From positions 248,905-312,904 of the forward strand of contig NZ_BMJM01000003.1 in assembly GCF_014643455.1 (NCBI RefSeq): a stretch of 64,000 bases of DNA. Reading direction: 5' to 3'. The position numbers were made by a program, and so were the translations under genes. The notes under the pieces were generated by a model. That model saw only the letters and a list, made by a program, of their open reading frames with translations. It searched no databases and was not told the DNA's origin. Source of the DNA: Sandarakinorhabdus glacialis. Lineage in GTDB: Bacteria; Pseudomonadota; Alphaproteobacteria; Sphingomonadales; Sphingomonadaceae. Positions 13,021 to 21,494 of this stretch are shown piece after piece. Each line of letters begins with the position of its first letter. Positions within the stretch are counted from its first letter, which is position 1.

Positions 13021-13539
13021 ATGATCTCGTCATCCTCGCCGCAAGCCATCGTGCCGCCGTCCGGGAGCGCTTTGGCGCCGGGGTATGCCGGGGCCGACCT
13101 CGTGGATGCCTATGCGATCGCACTGCCGGCGGATGCGACGCGCGATATCGAGGCATTGGCGCGGGCGATACTGACGCATCCGCCGGCGTGGGTCGGCACA
13201 CTCATGCTGCTGCGCGACGCAATCATGGGACGTCTCGGGATCAAGACGGCGGGGCAATTGCGGACACGCGGCGACCGACGCGACCGCATCGATTTCTTCC
13301 CGGTCGTGTCGCGCTCCGACCGCGAGATCCTCGTCGGCGAGGACGACCGGCATCTCGATTTTCGGGCGTCGGTGCTGGTATTTGCCGATGGCGGCCAGGA
13401 CATCGTCAGCATGACGACGGTGGTGCATTGCCACAATCGGCTGGGGCGGTTTTACCTGATGGTGATCGGTCCTTTCCATGTCGTGATCGTCAGGACATTC
13501 ATCCGGAATGCTGCGCGGCGCGGGTGGCCAAAAGTCTAG
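13021..13539 (+). CDS. DUF2867 family protein
   Basis: A 172-residue soluble protein. The layout fits DUF2867: an N-terminal '[13 protein letters not shown]' segment, the central '[20 protein letters not shown]' helix, then '[20 protein letters not shown]' and '[11 protein letters not shown]', ending in '[20 protein letters not shown]'. Function is unknown. ATG 13021 is used; an upstream TTG at 12997 is in frame. The stop codon overlaps that of the convergent adhesin gene (TAG/CTA at 13536-13539), so there is no room for a separate terminator. Confidence 0.75.
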
Positions 13540-14454
13540 AATTCACCGGCGACCCCGACACGCGCGGCGTTGTTGCCCTCGCCGGCAAAGGCGAAGCCGG
13601 CGGTGAGGGCAAACGGCTGTGCGGTACCGAAGCGGTGTGCGACCGAACCGCCGATGGCCTGTTCGCCGCGGAAGGTCGACCCGTTGAGGGTGTAGCTGGT
13701 GCGGCCGGGCGCCGACGGCATCGGGGCATAGCCGATGGCGACGGCGGCGGCGGTGCCCTTGCGCGCATCGCGCTCGACGTTGCGCAGGTCGAAGCCGAGC
13801 GCCGAGATGCGGCTGTCGGTATAGGCGTTGGACGCGGCAAGCCCCGCCGTCAGCCCGGACTGCAACTGCCCGACATTGGCGGCATCGCTGGCGGAGGTGC
13901 CCGGCGCGACATTGGTGATGCGGCGGGTGGCAAACGCCGAGCCGACCGAGACCACGTTGGTCGCACCATCGTCGCGCGAACCGGCGCCGAGGGCGACCGA
14001 GTTGGTGCCGGTGCTGACCGCGCCGGCACCGACGGCGACGGTGTTGGCTGCAACAGCAGCGCTGCCGTTGCCCATGGCGAGCGACTGGCTTCCGGATGCC
14101 ACGGCGCCGGCGCCACCGGCCGAAGCATTTGCGCCGCTTGCCACCGGCCCCAATGCCCCGGCATTGTTGCTGGAAACGAAGCCCAGGCCTTGGCTGACGA
14201 CCAGTGTCGAGAGGTTGACGACGGCGGCGTTGGTGGTAGCCAGTTGCGAGCCGTTGACCGCGTCACGCGATGCGGCGGCGACAAGCCCGTCGGCGACGCC
14301 GGTGACGGTCCGGGCGCCGCCGGTCCCGGTGACGTCGACGACAGTGCCGCCGGTTGCAGCCGCCACGGTGACCGGCGCCGCCGGGCCGGATTGCTGGACG
14401 ATGCCGATGGTACCGGCGTTGATCTGACCGGTGAGATTGGTGACGTTGCCGGCG

Positions 14455-14580: not shown

Positions 14581-15284
14581 TTCGTTGCGGTCTAGCCTTG
14601 CAATGTGGTGATCGACCCGGTGTTCGCCGCGGTCTGGCCCTGCAGCGTGCCGATGTCGCTCGAGTTCGTTCCGACCTGGGCGGTCAGGGCAGTGATTGCC
14701 CCGGTGTTGCCGCTGGACTGGCCTTGCAATGCCGTGATGGCGCCGGTGGTGGTCGTCAACTGGGCGTCGATCGCCGTGATGGCGCCGCCGACACTCGATT
14801 GAGCGCTGCCCTGGACGGTGTAGGCAGGTGCCGTTACCGAGCCATCGGCGGACACGACGGCGCCGCCGCCGAGCGCCGAAGCGACGCTTTGCGCGGTGTT
14901 GGCGAGTTGGCTGCCGTTGACCGCCTGCACCGAGCCGGCACCGACCGCGCCGGCTGCAACGCCGACAAGCTGCCGCGCATCGCCGGGATTACCGGTGCCG
15001 GTGCCGGTGAAATCGACTGCCGCACCGTTGGCGGCCGCGCCGGCGCTGATGTTGGCGCCGCTGGCGGGCTGAATCACCAGGCCGATACCGTTCGACGGCG
15101 CGCCCGCGGTCAAGCCGGTGATGGCAGCAGTATTCGAATTGATCTGGGTCTGCTGGCTGCCGTTTTCGACCTGGAGCGAGGTGATGGCACCGGTGTTGGT
15201 CGTTGTCTGCGTCTGCAGTGTGCCGATATCGGTCATGGTGCCCGCAACCTGACCCTGCAGCGCCGTGATGCTGGAGTTGTTGGC

Positions 15285-15420
15285 GCCGATCTGGGTAGTG
15301 TTGGCGGCGATGGCGCCGGTATTGGCAGTTATAGCGCTGGTGTTGGTCGCTATGGCGCTGGTGTTGGTCGCTATGCTGCTGGTGTTGACTGCTATGCCGC
15401 TGGTGTTGGTCGTGACCTCG
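15285..15420 (-). repeat. Heptad-coding tandem repeats, adhesin stalk (proximal part)
   Basis: Consecutive 21-base units coding NTSGIAV, NTSSIAT, NTSAIAT, NTSAITA and NTGAIAA. The unit is diverged at synonymous sites but very regular, a hot spot for slippage-driven length change in the adhesin stalk. Confidence 0.65.
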
Positions 15421-16713
15421 CCATCGAGGGCGGTCAGCGCGGCACCGACGCTCGGTTGGACCACGCCTTGCACGGTGTAGCTGGGCTGGGTCAACACGCC
15501 GGTTGCGGCATCGTACGCCGCGCCGCCGCCGAGTGCCGATGCGGCAGCCGATGCGATAGTATCGGCGCGGACGCTGACCGATTGCAGCTGGCTGACATTG
15601 ACGGCGTCGGTGGCCAGATTGCCCGCGGCGACCCCGGTGACCTGGCGCTGTCCGGCCGCGGTACCGAACGCGACTTCGCCGATCGATGTTTGCGGTAGCG
15701 TCAGCGCAAAGCCTGTATAGCCGGCTTGCGCACCGCGGCTGGCAAGCGAGTTCCGGCCCAGCGCGACGCTGTTGGCCGCGGTTGCCGAGGCAAAGCTGCC
15801 GATCGCCGAGCTGTCGACGGCCGTGGCCGAGGCGCCCTGCCCCAGCGCCGTGGTCCGCACGCTGCCGGCGACGGCGTTGACCCCATAAGCGACTGCCGAA
15901 TTGCCGGCGGTGGCGTTGGTACCGGTAGCGGTCGAATTGGTTCCGGCGCGCGCGCCGTCGCCGAGCGCGGTGCCTTGCGGACCGTCGGCGACGGCGCCAT
16001 CGCCGATCGCCGTCGAATTCTGGGCGCTGGCCACCGCCGCGTTGCCGATCGCGATGGTGTTGACCCGGGTGAGATCAGCGAGAGATCCGGCGGTAGCGAA
16101 GTTGCCGATGGCGATGCTGTTGACGCCGAACGCCGCGGCATCGCGGCCGAGCGCCGTCGTGGAGGCGGCGGTCGCTTGCGCGCCGTTGCCGATGGCGACA
16201 CTGTCGCTGCCGCCCGCGAGCGTCGGCGCTGTCCGATCGTTGCCGATGGCGATACCGCCGTCGGCGGTGACCCGCGCTGCCGGTCTCGTGCCGGCGGGGC
16301 AATCTCCATTGCCGCTGATGGCGACGCCGCCCCTGGGAAGCCCCCCTGCCACGACGGCGGGCGGATTGGCGACGCACGCCGGCGCCGCGGGCGGATCCTG
16401 CGGATTGACCGCGACCTGCGCCAGTGCCGGGCCCGCGAACAACGGCAGCGTCATGGCGCCGGCAAGGCACAATGCGCGGCGGCGGCTTGGTGCAGGCGTG
16501 GCGATCCGGTTGTTGAAGACGCGCATGTTGGTACTCCCCTTGAAAATTCTACTGAATGACTGGCGACAACGTGCCGTCATGACGGCGTGGTGGCGCGGAG
16601 AAATCGACCAGCGGCGTGATCGCTGCGGGCCTGGATGGCCAACCGGTCCTTCCCCGAATCAGCCAATGTCGCCTGATACTGGCCCGGCGGCATGTGATCC
16701 CCCTGGCCGCACC

Positions 16714-17275: not shown

Positions 17276-17677
17276 TCAGTCGATCGGCGCACGGGCTGTC
17301 ATGTCGGCACCGCCAGGAAGGGGGATTTCGCGCAGGCCCGCGGTCAGGCCATCGAGCGCCTCGCCGGGAAGCGCTATTGCCAACTGCTTTTCCAACGCCC
17401 GAAAACTGTCGAGTATTACCCGGCCCTTGGCAGTCAGGCGGGCGCCGCGGCTGGTGCTGCCGCCGGCGGTGGTGTCGACGAGGCGCTCGGTCCAGCAATG
17501 GTTCATGCTGTCGACGAGCAGCCAGGCGCGGCGATAGCTCATGCCGAGCGCGCGGCCGGCGGCCGAGATCGAACCGGTGCGGTCGATCGCTTCGAGGAGA
17601 TCGGCCTTGCCGGGGCCGATCGCCGGTTCGCCGCCGCAAAGCAGTTGCGTACGGATCTTGACGGGCCCGACCTGCAC
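17276..17677 (-). CDS. ModE-type winged helix-turn-helix regulator without Mop domain
   Basis: The 133-residue protein matches the DNA-binding half of ModE: 'LLEAIDRTGSISAAGRALGM' followed by 'SYRRAWLLVDSMNHCW' (LysR-like HTH), then the wing 'TTAGGSTSRGARLTAKGRVI' and a dimerisation helix. Full ModE adds two C-terminal molybdate-binding Mop domains, absent here. A single-Mop protein is encoded four bases upstream, so the two parts are separate proteins. The start is a GTG. It probably controls molybdate or molybdoenzyme genes, but no modABC is in the window; moaC and moeA lie 30 kb away. Confidence 0.82.
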   Translation of the reverse strand: MQVGPVKIRTQLLCGGEPAIGPGKADLLEAIDRTGSISAAGRALGMSYRRAWLLVDSMNHCWTERLVDTTAGGSTSRGARLTAKGRVILDSFRALEKQLAIALPGEALDGLTAGLREIPLPGGADMTARAPID

Positions 17678-19790: not shown

Positions 19791-20477
19791 CTAGTTGCGG
19801 CGGGCGGCCGCCAGCATCGCGGATTCGATCTGGGAGCCGAGGTTGTTGATGATCGTGCCGGCGTTGCTCAGATCGACGTTGACATGGGCGACAGTGTCGA
19901 TGACGCGATTGTCGGCGGTGTTGCCGATGACGACGCCGGTGGCCTGCCCGACCAGTTGCCGGATTTCGATGGTGGGCCCGACCAGCGTGGTGACGAAGCC
20001 GCCGGCGTTGGTGGTGACGCGGGCGTCGCCGAACCGGGTCGGCGCCGAGGGTCCGCCCGGCACCAGTGGCAATGGCGTGCCGTCGCTGGCGGGGGCGCCG
20101 CTGCCGTTGAGCGTGACGACGACGGGCGCGCCCGGGGCCGAGGTGACGGTGGTGCCGGTGCGCGCGCGTTCGGTGATGACCACGGGGGGCTGCCAGGTGG
20201 TGATGCTGACGCGCCGGCCGTCGCCGACGGCGCCGGTGCCGCCGGTCGCGACCATGACGCCGGGGCGCTCGGTTGAGACGCTGGTGCGCAGCGCGAGGAC
20301 GCCGTCGATGCGGGTCTCGATGGTGATGCCGATCGCGACCGACAAGCCGTTGGGTAGCAGGATGCCGCCGCGCATGGATGCGAGTTCAGGATCGGACAGG
20401 GCTTGTTGCGCCGAAAATGTCGACGCAGCGGCGGGAGCCGCGAGCGCGAACGCCATCAGGACAAGAGTGCGGGTCAT
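19791..20477 (-). CDS. Secreted protein with double-glycine-like motif (candidate C39 substrate)
   Basis: A 228-residue secreted protein: signal peptide (TLVLMAFALAAPAAASTF), then 'ALSDPELASMRGG' at residues 26-38, followed by 'ILLPNGLSVAIGITIETRID', a Thr/Val/Gly/Pro-rich middle and a C-terminal 'VAHVNVDLSNAGTIINNLGS'. The LS..EL...GG pattern resembles leader sequences that C39 peptidases cut after Gly-Gly, and a C39 peptidase gene lies 17 bases upstream. It probably fills a FapE-like or minor-subunit role in the amyloid system; this is inference. ATG 20477 is chosen because it begins the signal peptide behind GGGAAG; the open frame runs further to 20933 inside the C39 gene. Confidence 0.65.
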   Translation of the reverse strand: MTRTLVLMAFALAAPAAASTFSAQQALSDPELASMRGGILLPNGLSVAIGITIETRIDGVLALRTSVSTERPGVMVATGGTGAVGDGRRVSITTWQPPVVITERARTGTTVTSAPGAPVVVTLNGSGAPASDGTPLPLVPGGPSAPTRFGDARVTTNAGGFVTTLVGPTIEIRQLVGQATGVVIGNTADNRVIDTVAHVNVDLSNAGTIINNLGSQIESAMLAAARRN

Positions 20478-20494: not shown

Positions 20495-21199
20495 TCAGAT
20501 GTCGCCAAGGATGGGGCGGGTCAGGCTGAGCGCTGCTTGGCTCAGGGGTTCGGTCGGGGCAAAACTGGGCGCGCCGGGGGCGAGTGCCCATTCGGTGGGC
20601 GAGGCGAAGCTGCCAGTCTTGCTGCCGGCGCGCGCATTGATGACGAAATAGACGCCGTTCCAGATTTTGCTGAACTCGCCGGTCGTGATGCGGCGCAGGC
20701 CAAGCGCCGGGTCGCCGACGAGGACGCGGCCATTGTCGAAACCCTTGACGACGACGAAATGCTTGTAGCCCTGGGTATCGACCAAGGCGATGCCGGGTGA
20801 GCCGACGCGGGCGATCTGTTCGAGGGTGACCTTGTAGCCATCGGCGGCGATGCCGCGGCCGGCGAGGTAGCGTTTCATGTCGAGCAGCGAGAACCCGAGC
20901 CGGCGGATGGCGGCGCGGTCGCCTTCGCGCCACATGCCGAGGAAGACCGATTGCTCGTTCTGGGGGTCGCCATAGTGAAAGCGCAGCAGCGTTGCGAGTG
21001 CGCCGGAGCCGCAGCTGAAATCATATTGCTGCTGGATGACGGTCTGGAACTTGCGCTGCTGGACGCTCGCGACCGGCAGCGCGATATCGACGACGCCGGG
21101 CTGGTACAGGCGCGCGCCATCTAGGCCCGGCTGCGGGGTACAAGCAGCGGTCAGCACGAGGGCACCGATCAAGGCGGTGTTACTGCCGGATAGCGACAT
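20495..21199 (-). CDS. C39-family cysteine peptidase lipoprotein (FapD-like)
   Basis: The 234-residue protein starts with a lipoprotein signal (ALIGALVLTAAC, lipobox LTAAC), so it is probably membrane-anchored in the periplasm. The peptidase domain carries 'VIQQQYDFSCGSGALATLLR' (catalytic Cys, with oxyanion Gln before it), 'YKHFVVVKGFDNGRVLVGDP' (catalytic His and Asp), and the family helix 'AIRRLGFSLLDMKRYL'. FapD of the Pseudomonas Fap amyloid operon is a C39-type protease of this kind. Its start overlaps the stop of the small secreted gene upstream by 20 bases, a sign of translational coupling. It probably trims or licenses export of the amyloid-like proteins. Confidence 0.82.
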   Translation of the reverse strand: MSLSGSNTALIGALVLTAACTPQPGLDGARLYQPGVVDIALPVASVQQRKFQTVIQQQYDFSCGSGALATLLRFHYGDPQNEQSVFLGMWREGDRAAIRRLGFSLLDMKRYLAGRGIAADGYKVTLEQIARVGSPGIALVDTQGYKHFVVVKGFDNGRVLVGDPALGLRRITTGEFSKIWNGVYFVINARAGSKTGSFASPTEWALAPGAPSFAPTEPLSQAALSLTRPILGDI

Positions 21200-21494
21200 T
21201 GACGTTCAATGCGGCATTGATCGAGACGTTGTTGCCGGTGTTGGCGCTGACCACGGCGAGGCCGTTGAGGTTCTGGAAGGCGTTACCGCCAAACGACAGC
21301 GCGCCGGTCGTGGTCTGGCCGCTGACGCTGTTGTTGGAAACGACGCTCGAATTGTCGGCGCGCGCCAGTTGGGAGAGATCGGCCTTGCCGGCGATGCCGC
21401 CAAGGACGGCGTCGGTCACGGGAGCGCCGAAGCTGTCGGCGGCAATAGCGGGTGCCGCCATGACGAGCGCCAGCGCGGCGAGATGGATTTTCAC
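21180..21494 (-). CDS. Small secreted amyloid-subunit-like protein (AFQN..GL motif)
   Basis: A 104-residue protein starting at GTG 21494 behind a perfect AGGAGG seven bases upstream. Signal peptide 'KIHLAALALVMAAPAIAADS', then a helical stretch (AVLGGIAGKADLSQLARADN), then Asn/Ser/Gly-rich sequence. The C-terminus 'GNAFQNLNGLAVVSANTGNN' followed by 'VSINAALNVNVAIRQ' shares the pattern AFQN-[FL]-x-GL...NTG...NAA..V.V with the end of the large Asn/Ser-rich protein encoded just upstream. Fap fibre proteins have comparable Asn-rich motifs (G.N.AAG..NQQ), so a minor or nucleator subunit like FapB is inferred. Family name not established. Confidence 0.65.
   Translation of the reverse strand: MKIHLAALALVMAAPAIAADSFGAPVTDAVLGGIAGKADLSQLARADNSSVVSNNSVSGQTTTGALSFGGNAFQNLNGLAVVSANTGNNVSINAALNVNVAIRQ

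Follow-up and report, generated by a model that had tools for sequence, protein, structure and literature searches.

A Sec signal followed by a C39-type double-glycine leader in secreted neighbours of a FapD-like peptidase from Sandarakinorhabdus glacialis

Introduction

Two unrelated secreted proteins encoded beside a FapD-like C39 peptidase in Sandarakinorhabdus glacialis carry, behind their Sec signal peptides, a second leader of the type cut by the C39 peptidases of bacteriocin exporters. Judging from the comparison of homologous loci, signal peptidase probably acts first on both proteins (P0002 and P0004), and the FapD-like peptidase (P0003) then cuts their second leader in the periplasm. 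All coordinates refer to the window, the whole stretch of 64,000 nucleotides analysed (positions 248,905 to 312,904 of contig NZ_BMJM01000003.1, assembly GCF_014643455.1).

FapD activity is needed for functional-amyloid secretion, and the leader suggests an answer to the question of what FapD cuts. According to the accessible text of a 2017 paper on Pseudomonas UK4, FapD is periplasmic, and with its C38A substitution FapC was no longer secreted in an E. coli assay; N-terminal peptides of FapE were missing over about 70 residues by mass spectrometry; FapA looked unprocessed; and the FapD target "remains unclear", the Fap proteins being without canonical C39 sequences (PMC5557850). In the excerpts available, a 2018 review calls the FapD substrate undetermined and reports fapD-fapF pairs in five further phyla (PMC6173800), a 2024 paper lists FapD as a putative protease (PMC11787515), and a 2025 review names FapE and FapF as presumed targets of FapD (PMC12822426).

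Results

The genes of the locus are transcribed from the minus strand in the order LuxR-like gene, P0005, P0004, P0003, P0002 and P0001. The presence of a FapF-like pore (P0001), a FapD-like peptidase (P0003) and a protein in the FapE position (P0002) identifies it, by sequence, as a predicted divergent Fap-type amyloid-secretion operon; since the FapB/FapC repeats are absent, it is a Fap-like variant and not canonical Fap. P0001 (18469-19782), an outer-membrane secretion pore with a coiled-coil-like N-terminal stretch, matched the NCBIfam FapF model NF058560 over residues 20-434 (E 2.2e-44; 152 of 700 bits, below the equivalog cut-off). P0003 (20495-21199) matched the FapD model NF058616 (E 9.7e-46; 155.8 bits, equivalog cut-off 330 bits) and FilB (E 3e-36; 125.2 of the 475 bits needed). 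P0002 (19791-20477; 228 aa), with a Sec signal, a C39-type leader and a beta-rich mature domain, matched FapE only over residues 4-55, a stretch made up of signal, leader and 17 further residues (E 0.0022; 17.2 of 250 bits), and its operon position fits FapE. P0004 (21180-21494; 104 aa, GTG start) is a small secreted protein with a Sec signal and a C39-type leader, and P0005 (21623-22567) an N/S/T/D-rich secreted protein and putative fibre subunit, whose C-terminus is similar to that of P0004 (BLASTP E 2e-4). P0006 (22729-23871), directly upstream of the cluster, resembles LuxR/GerE regulators through weak matches only and is a putative operon member.

No NCBIfam match to FapB or FapC was obtained for P0005 at E values up to 1, nor at 0.01 in a second scan; FapB of locus L051 and FapC of locus L044 were recognised in the scan that left P0005 unmatched. 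P0005 and seven other subunits from the GG group of loci (defined below) received no convincing name from NCBIfam, and FapA was not matched among the six proteins scanned. A missing fapA is the commonest deviation of fap operons (6 of 16 genera, in the accessible part of PMC3792158). Near the operon, the neighbouring ORFs 13536-14366 and 14592-16580 (minus strand) contain YadA head/stalk repeats and a weak YadA anchor (21.3 of 22.7 bits), and may be a single trimeric autotransporter adhesin whose gene is split by a frame change; a LysR-type helix-turn-helix protein of 133 aa (PF00126, E 1e-6) is encoded downstream of the operon at 17276-17677 (minus strand).

Translation of 19791-20477 on the minus strand gives ALSDPELASMRGG at residues 26-38 of P0002, the last base of G38 being position 20364; the ELxxxRGG-type block that the initial annotation had placed there, after the signal peptide, is thus exact. 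The Sec-type signal, MTRTLVLMAFALAAPAAA, recognised by eye and by a rule of our own, spans residues 1 to about 18 (20424-20477; cleavage point estimated). It is followed by the leader core (P12-P1, L27 to G38; 20364-20399), which reads L27-S-D-P-E31-L32-A-S-M35-R-G37-G38, and by the predicted mature part from I39 (19794-20363), placed by the conserved domain that begins at the GG and by AF2 strands from residue 46. In the available text of PMC6363468, the C39 consensus drawn from mutational work comprises Leu-12, Glu-8, Leu-7 and the double-glycine motif; the leader in the LahT complex is a two-turn helix whose residues -4, -7 and -12 are held in hydrophobic pockets; and the -2/-1 positions of exporter leaders are quoted as GG, GA or GS. 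P0002 has the expected residue at every consensus position (L-12, E-8, L-7, hydrophobic -4, GG), behind a Sec signal. Its AF2 model (mean pLDDT 76.0), which found no match in the PDB by Foldseek at E 0.001 or better, has a helix at residues 29-36 (P10-P3), like the helical leader bound to LahT in structure 6mpz (PMC6363468, as accessible).

We then compared FapD loci from three sources: a sample of 398 genomes from the phylum, 38 of them positive (46 matches; all but two of those beyond the window's own genome were retrieved at length); the relatives of P0002 among 98 genomes; and a species-genome scan, in which 588 of 594 pattern matches were confirmed among the matches listed and the best 80 were kept. 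The gene caller recovered the C39 gene in 108 of 128 large loci, and the other 20 were searched stop-to-stop. Once near-copies were dropped, 97 distinct FapD genes remained, the window included. A strict leader expression (acid or Gln at P8, plus GG or GA) found only 28 of the 97 loci, being too narrow and missing overlapping genes; the shortfall was partly due to gene-calling misses, the window among them, and the expression was replaced by a mature-domain profile and by position-weight scoring.

In 41 aligned homologues of P0002, G37 is invariant and L32, R36 and G38 are at least 90% conserved; the block is kept behind the signal peptide, contrary to the outcome that the initial annotation would have taken as refutation. 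A profile of the FapE-like mature domain, built from the part behind the GG with the motif left out, detected a FapE-like protein directly downstream of FapD in 87 of the 97 loci. The boundary was anchored on a G[GRKAQS] no more than 8 residues away from where it was expected, with P12, P7 and P3 not used, so that the Gly at P2 is partly by construction, yet no match without it was found. Leaving out L151, which was mis-anchored (motif ASDEELDRMRGG by eye), all 86 boundaries counted read G-[G/R/K] (P1: G 69, R 11, K 6). P7 is L in 81 leaders and M in 5; P3 is R in 82 of 86; P12 is L, I, V, M or F in 79 of 86. An aromatic residue (F or Y) occupies P1' in 76 of the 86, whereas P8 is acidic (E or D) in only 38. 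Not noticed at the outset was that, although P0002 and most of its relatives have the two glycines, residues other than Gly also occur at P1. Grouped at 50% identity, 81 FapE-like proteins make up 65 clusters, and the leader is conserved across two phyla.

Ten loci had no profile match: five have the motif by eye (L114, L119, L131, L133, L138), L132 is cut by a contig edge, L073 has a short FapD and no downstream gene call, and three (L075, L076, L078) belong to the Fil type. The C39 gene was located in 19 of the 20 loci where the gene caller had recovered none (L082 and L150 being copies of one locus), with a FapE-like protein in 16, all bearing the motif (16/16); the three others (L077, L086, L087) are of the Fil type. 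As controls we used all 171 predicted Sec genes among the 665 called in 40 arbitrarily chosen 20-kb stretches. A score of at least 9 on the consensus, within about 140 residues, was reached by 4 of the 171 controls versus 73 of 89 genes downstream of the C39 gene. A control Sec protein unlinked to FapD (L174, 5436, minus strand) has the leader-like string LGELQLSEVVGG, and is possibly an unlinked substrate or a chance case.

The small Sec protein encoded upstream of FapD is, from its sequence, a second candidate substrate family. The leader core of P0004 (P12-P1, V26 to K37; 21384-21419), set by the alignment of 22 members and a weight matrix, has L31 at P7, I34 at P4, G36 at P2 and K37 at P1; across the 22 aligned proteins G36 is invariant and Leu occurs at P7 in at least 90%. 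The "LGG" at residues 31-33 was rejected as cut site, since the alignment sets P2 at G36 and P1 at K37. P0002 and P0004 have no detectable homology (best E 0.12), and the small proteins have a conserved mature domain of their own, with none found in common with P0002. Scored with the matrix of the FapE leaders, 67 of 78 small proteins exceeded the 95th percentile of the control Sec proteins and 54 the 99th, compared with 6 of 390 shuffled small proteins above the 95th. In the reverse direction, 79 of 89 FapE-position genes passed the small-protein matrix (shuffles 44 of 445); this matrix is lax, as it also lets through 44 of the 160 remaining Sec proteins encoded in these operons, some fibre subunits included. 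Three rows were dropped (L040, a spurious ORF; L076 and L078, Fil type), leaving 75, of which nine lie under the control 95th percentile; at 50% identity, 37 of 44 clusters exceed the 95th percentile and 31 the 99th. Four small proteins have Ala at P2 by eye (L127, L139, L153, L156). Pfam and NCBIfam gave no convincing name, the four proteins scanned against NCBIfam (P0004 and three others) having weak matches only; that of L063 to FapE covers residues 1-42, the signal and leader (E 0.013). A related string, LSDGDFASVASG and the like, with Ser at P2 by eye, is seen in canonical FapA (so named by NCBIfam in L040) and in similar proteins. Separately, in locus L061 (genome G234) the unit of subunit, small protein, C39 and RGG-protein is duplicated in tandem.

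The FapE-like profile matched 24 of the 398 genomes, all among the 38 FapD-positive ones and none of the 360 FapD-negative (Fisher 5e-29), and all 26 matches are located no more than about 1 kb from a FapD match; up to seven first-look candidates were scored per genome, so some may have been missed. Among the 14 FapD-positive genomes that the profile did not match are some with Fil-type loci and some with canonical-type loci whose FapE is distant from it. With P0002 as query, 8 of the 98 relatives' genomes matched and the C39 gene adjoins in seven; the eighth match (G028, E 7.9e-4), with no C39 gene nearby, is weak and probably due to chance. Linkage alone cannot separate a protease/substrate relation from a common function.

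P0003 is, as the initial annotation had it, a separate and lipoprotein-like C39 peptidase: it has 234 aa, matches PF03412 (Peptidase_C39, E 2.6e-16), has C39-type families as its only Pfam matches with no ABC-transporter match, and carries a lipobox-like LTAAC, hence its prediction as a periplasmic lipoprotein. All 87 FapD proteins compared keep Q57, C63, H147 and D163. In sequence and modelled fold P0003 matches the double-glycine protease LahT with its leader bound (6mpz), in line with a fitting substrate groove, whose lack the initial annotation would have taken as refutation: the profile E value is 3.8e-15 and the Foldseek rmsd 1.9 A over 135 columns, in a model with mean pLDDT 81.5, where residues 61-190 exceed 90 by block. 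Peptidase structures of PCAT1 or LahT make up the eight best Foldseek matches; PCAT1, LahT and ComA are the closest solved structures, with papain-like toxins lower in the list. A crude pattern finds a lipobox-like string in 23 of 97 FapD proteins, mostly from sphingomonads, indicating that the lipoprotein form is not general.

The tree of the 97 FapD proteins (midpoint-rooted, for drawing only) separates a Fil group, a canonical-type group with R or K at P1 and a large GG group, which includes two Geobacteraceae (Thermodesulfobacteriota). The label canonical-type, or Pseudomonas-like, denotes a FapD above the NCBIfam cut-off (8 of 398) together with FapA, FapB and FapC matches. The nearest FapD relatives of P0003 are from Sphingomonas and kin. 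K occurs separately at P1 in two Sphingomonas loci; for L047 the mature-domain profile gives R. Eleven FapD positions separate the two P1 groups (R/K and GG) and were considered as residues switching with P1; the two Sphingomonas loci contradict this, since their FapD residues are of the GG type, and P1 specificity is thus not explained by these residues.

Some FapD tails look like the leader but offer no site to cut. They are ALxLTRP-like in P0003 and in five near relatives, and DxELxxFGF-like in the canonical type. In P0003 the tail is EPLSQAALSLTRP (20513-20551), where Pro replaces the P2 Gly of the substrates. Tails above the shuffled 95th percentile number 7 of 14 in the canonical type and 22 of 79 in the GG group (four loci excluded), versus 9.5% and 1.7% of the FapD core windows, respectively. 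This is suggestive of a C-terminal leader mimic that could be a built-in inhibitor in some FapD proteins.

FapF-like proteins are present in 92 of the 97 loci, with a recognisable signal in 89. Their pre-barrel stretch exceeds the control 95th percentile in 27 of the 89 and the 99th in 19 (example, ALNDERLDAERGAGA), and GG/GA sites at this junction had been proposed earlier (PMC5557850, as accessible). The FapE matrix also passed 23 of the 160 remaining Sec proteins from these operons, and the 15 strongest, those listed, are 13 of these FapF-like pores, one FapE-like protein and one DUF6160 protein. FapF as a general third substrate was rejected, because only 27 of 89 pass and the window's own P0001 scores -0.1; a leader-like site in about 30% of the homologues is possibly lineage-specific.

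In the Fil-type loci and elsewhere, DUF6160/FilA-type proteins (L076, L078, L234-L253) combine a Sec signal with an LxDxxLxxVTGQ-like leader in 13 of 19 rows, the wrong ORF having been picked in the other six. DUF6160 occurs in nine of the 398 genomes (G100, G155, G159, G210, G234, G242, G270, G286, G357) and a strong FilB (E < 1e-80) in eight, all DUF6160-positive. Several DUF6160 genes are far from filB, for example all seven in G270.

Discussion

The mechanism that we infer, including the cleavage itself, the bond that is cut, the sequence of the steps and the part they play in secretion, would be the following. P0002 and P0004 would be exported by Sec and lose their signal peptides; P0003, probably lipid-anchored in the periplasm, would bind the second leader as a short amphipathic helix with hydrophobic residues at P12, P7 and P4, and would cut after P1 (Gly38 in P0002, Lys37 in P0004). 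The mature domains would thereby be released, either to be secreted through the FapF-like pore P0001 or to be assembled there, with P0005 as the likely fibre subunit. The two-step scheme of the initial annotation, Sec export followed by C39 cleavage, is accordingly favoured by the comparative evidence, to which the analysis adds the Fap-like amyloid-secretion context and P0004 as second bearer of the same leader. Against it count the variable P1, the acidic P8 in only 38 of 86 leaders, the small proteins with Ala at P2, the nine of 75 small proteins under the control 95th percentile, the 28 of 97 loci found by the strict expression and the unprocessed look of FapA in UK4; and the gap of about 70 residues in UK4 FapE, set against a motif end near residue 40 in the FapE of L041, indicates that another cut may exist.

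The RGG block might instead be an uncut structural element at the edge of the mature beta-domain, with the C39 peptidase acting on FapF or the fibre subunit. The block does abut the conserved domain, P3 Arg and the P1' aromatic are conserved along with it, and the FapF of some homologues bears a leader-like site too; we nevertheless consider this improbable, because the same P12/P7/P2 pattern follows the signals of the small proteins, for which no mature domain in common with P0002 was found, because the spacing agrees with the C39 leader consensus, and because UK4 FapE loses N-terminal peptides (PMC5557850, accessible text). Less probable still is that P0003 serves as a leader-binding chaperone or docking platform, like the C39-like domains without the catalytic Cys, and that another enzyme, or none, cuts: a variable P1 and an occasional Ala at P2 are looser than the GG/GA/GS of the exporters, which would suit mere binding, but the catalytic Cys, His and Asp and the Gln before the Cys are kept in all 87 FapD proteins compared, and the C38A substitution of FapD put an end to secretion in the E. 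coli assay (PMC5557850, same text).

That an accidental LSxxELxxxxGG string in a single secreted protein, or lineage inheritance, accounts for the leader is scarcely credible. Double glycines are frequent in Gly-rich secreted proteins, and automatic gene calls gave the strict pattern in just 28 of 97 loci; this reading is already contradicted by the homologue alignments, with conservation over 65 clusters in two phyla and only 4 of 171 control Sec proteins scoring as high. Sequential cleavage by signal peptidase and P0003 remains our preferred explanation.

In broader terms, the stand-alone, Sec-exported C39 peptidases (FapD, those of the GG group, FilB) could be second, periplasmic signal peptidases with several substrates, some with inhibitory mimics as tails, a generalisation to which we give about even chances. 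If true, the substrates would be the FapE-like protein, a small unrelated protein, the FapF linker in some lineages and, for FilB, the unlinked DUF6160 proteins. By keeping the textbook double-glycine leader, the divergent branch exposes the degenerate ..EL..RG[RK] form that canonical FapE has, points to a testable bond and turns the FapD substrate question into one simple test. It also suggests the reuse, as a periplasmic maturation enzyme, of a protease family familiar from bacteriocin export. In the accessible parts of the Fap, Fil and DUF6160 literature, with few subscription papers among them, we found no report of a C39 leader placed after a Sec signal; we take as new the leader motif, the two unrelated neighbours bearing it and the GG-type operon branch without FapB/FapC matches.

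The locus shares with Fap the FapD-like Sec-exported C39 peptidase, the FapF-like pore, the FapE-position protein and the low-complexity secreted subunits, as well as the local order (subunits, C39, FapE-like, pore). Unlike Fap, the window has no FapA, FapB or FapC matches among the proteins scanned and all its matches are below the equivalog cut-offs; its leader ends in GG whereas the canonical type has R or K; and its FapD-like protein has a lipobox. The Fil system (filA-filC, the NCBIfam "putative pilus system") is alike in that FilB is a related C39 peptidase and the FilA/DUF6160 proteins have a Sec signal and then LxDxxLxxVTGQ; it differs in the low FilB score of P0003 (125.2/475), in a P1 that would be Gln and in its separate group in the FapD tree. 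With the AMS/PCAT exporters (LahT, PCAT1, ComA) the window shares the C39 fold, the Q/C/H/D residues and the leader with L-12, E-8, L-7, a hydrophobic -4 and GG, but its C39 peptidase stands alone with a signal peptide and has no ABC or membrane domains; since the substrate is a full-size Sec protein, recognition would follow export across the inner membrane, unlike in AMS/PCAT.
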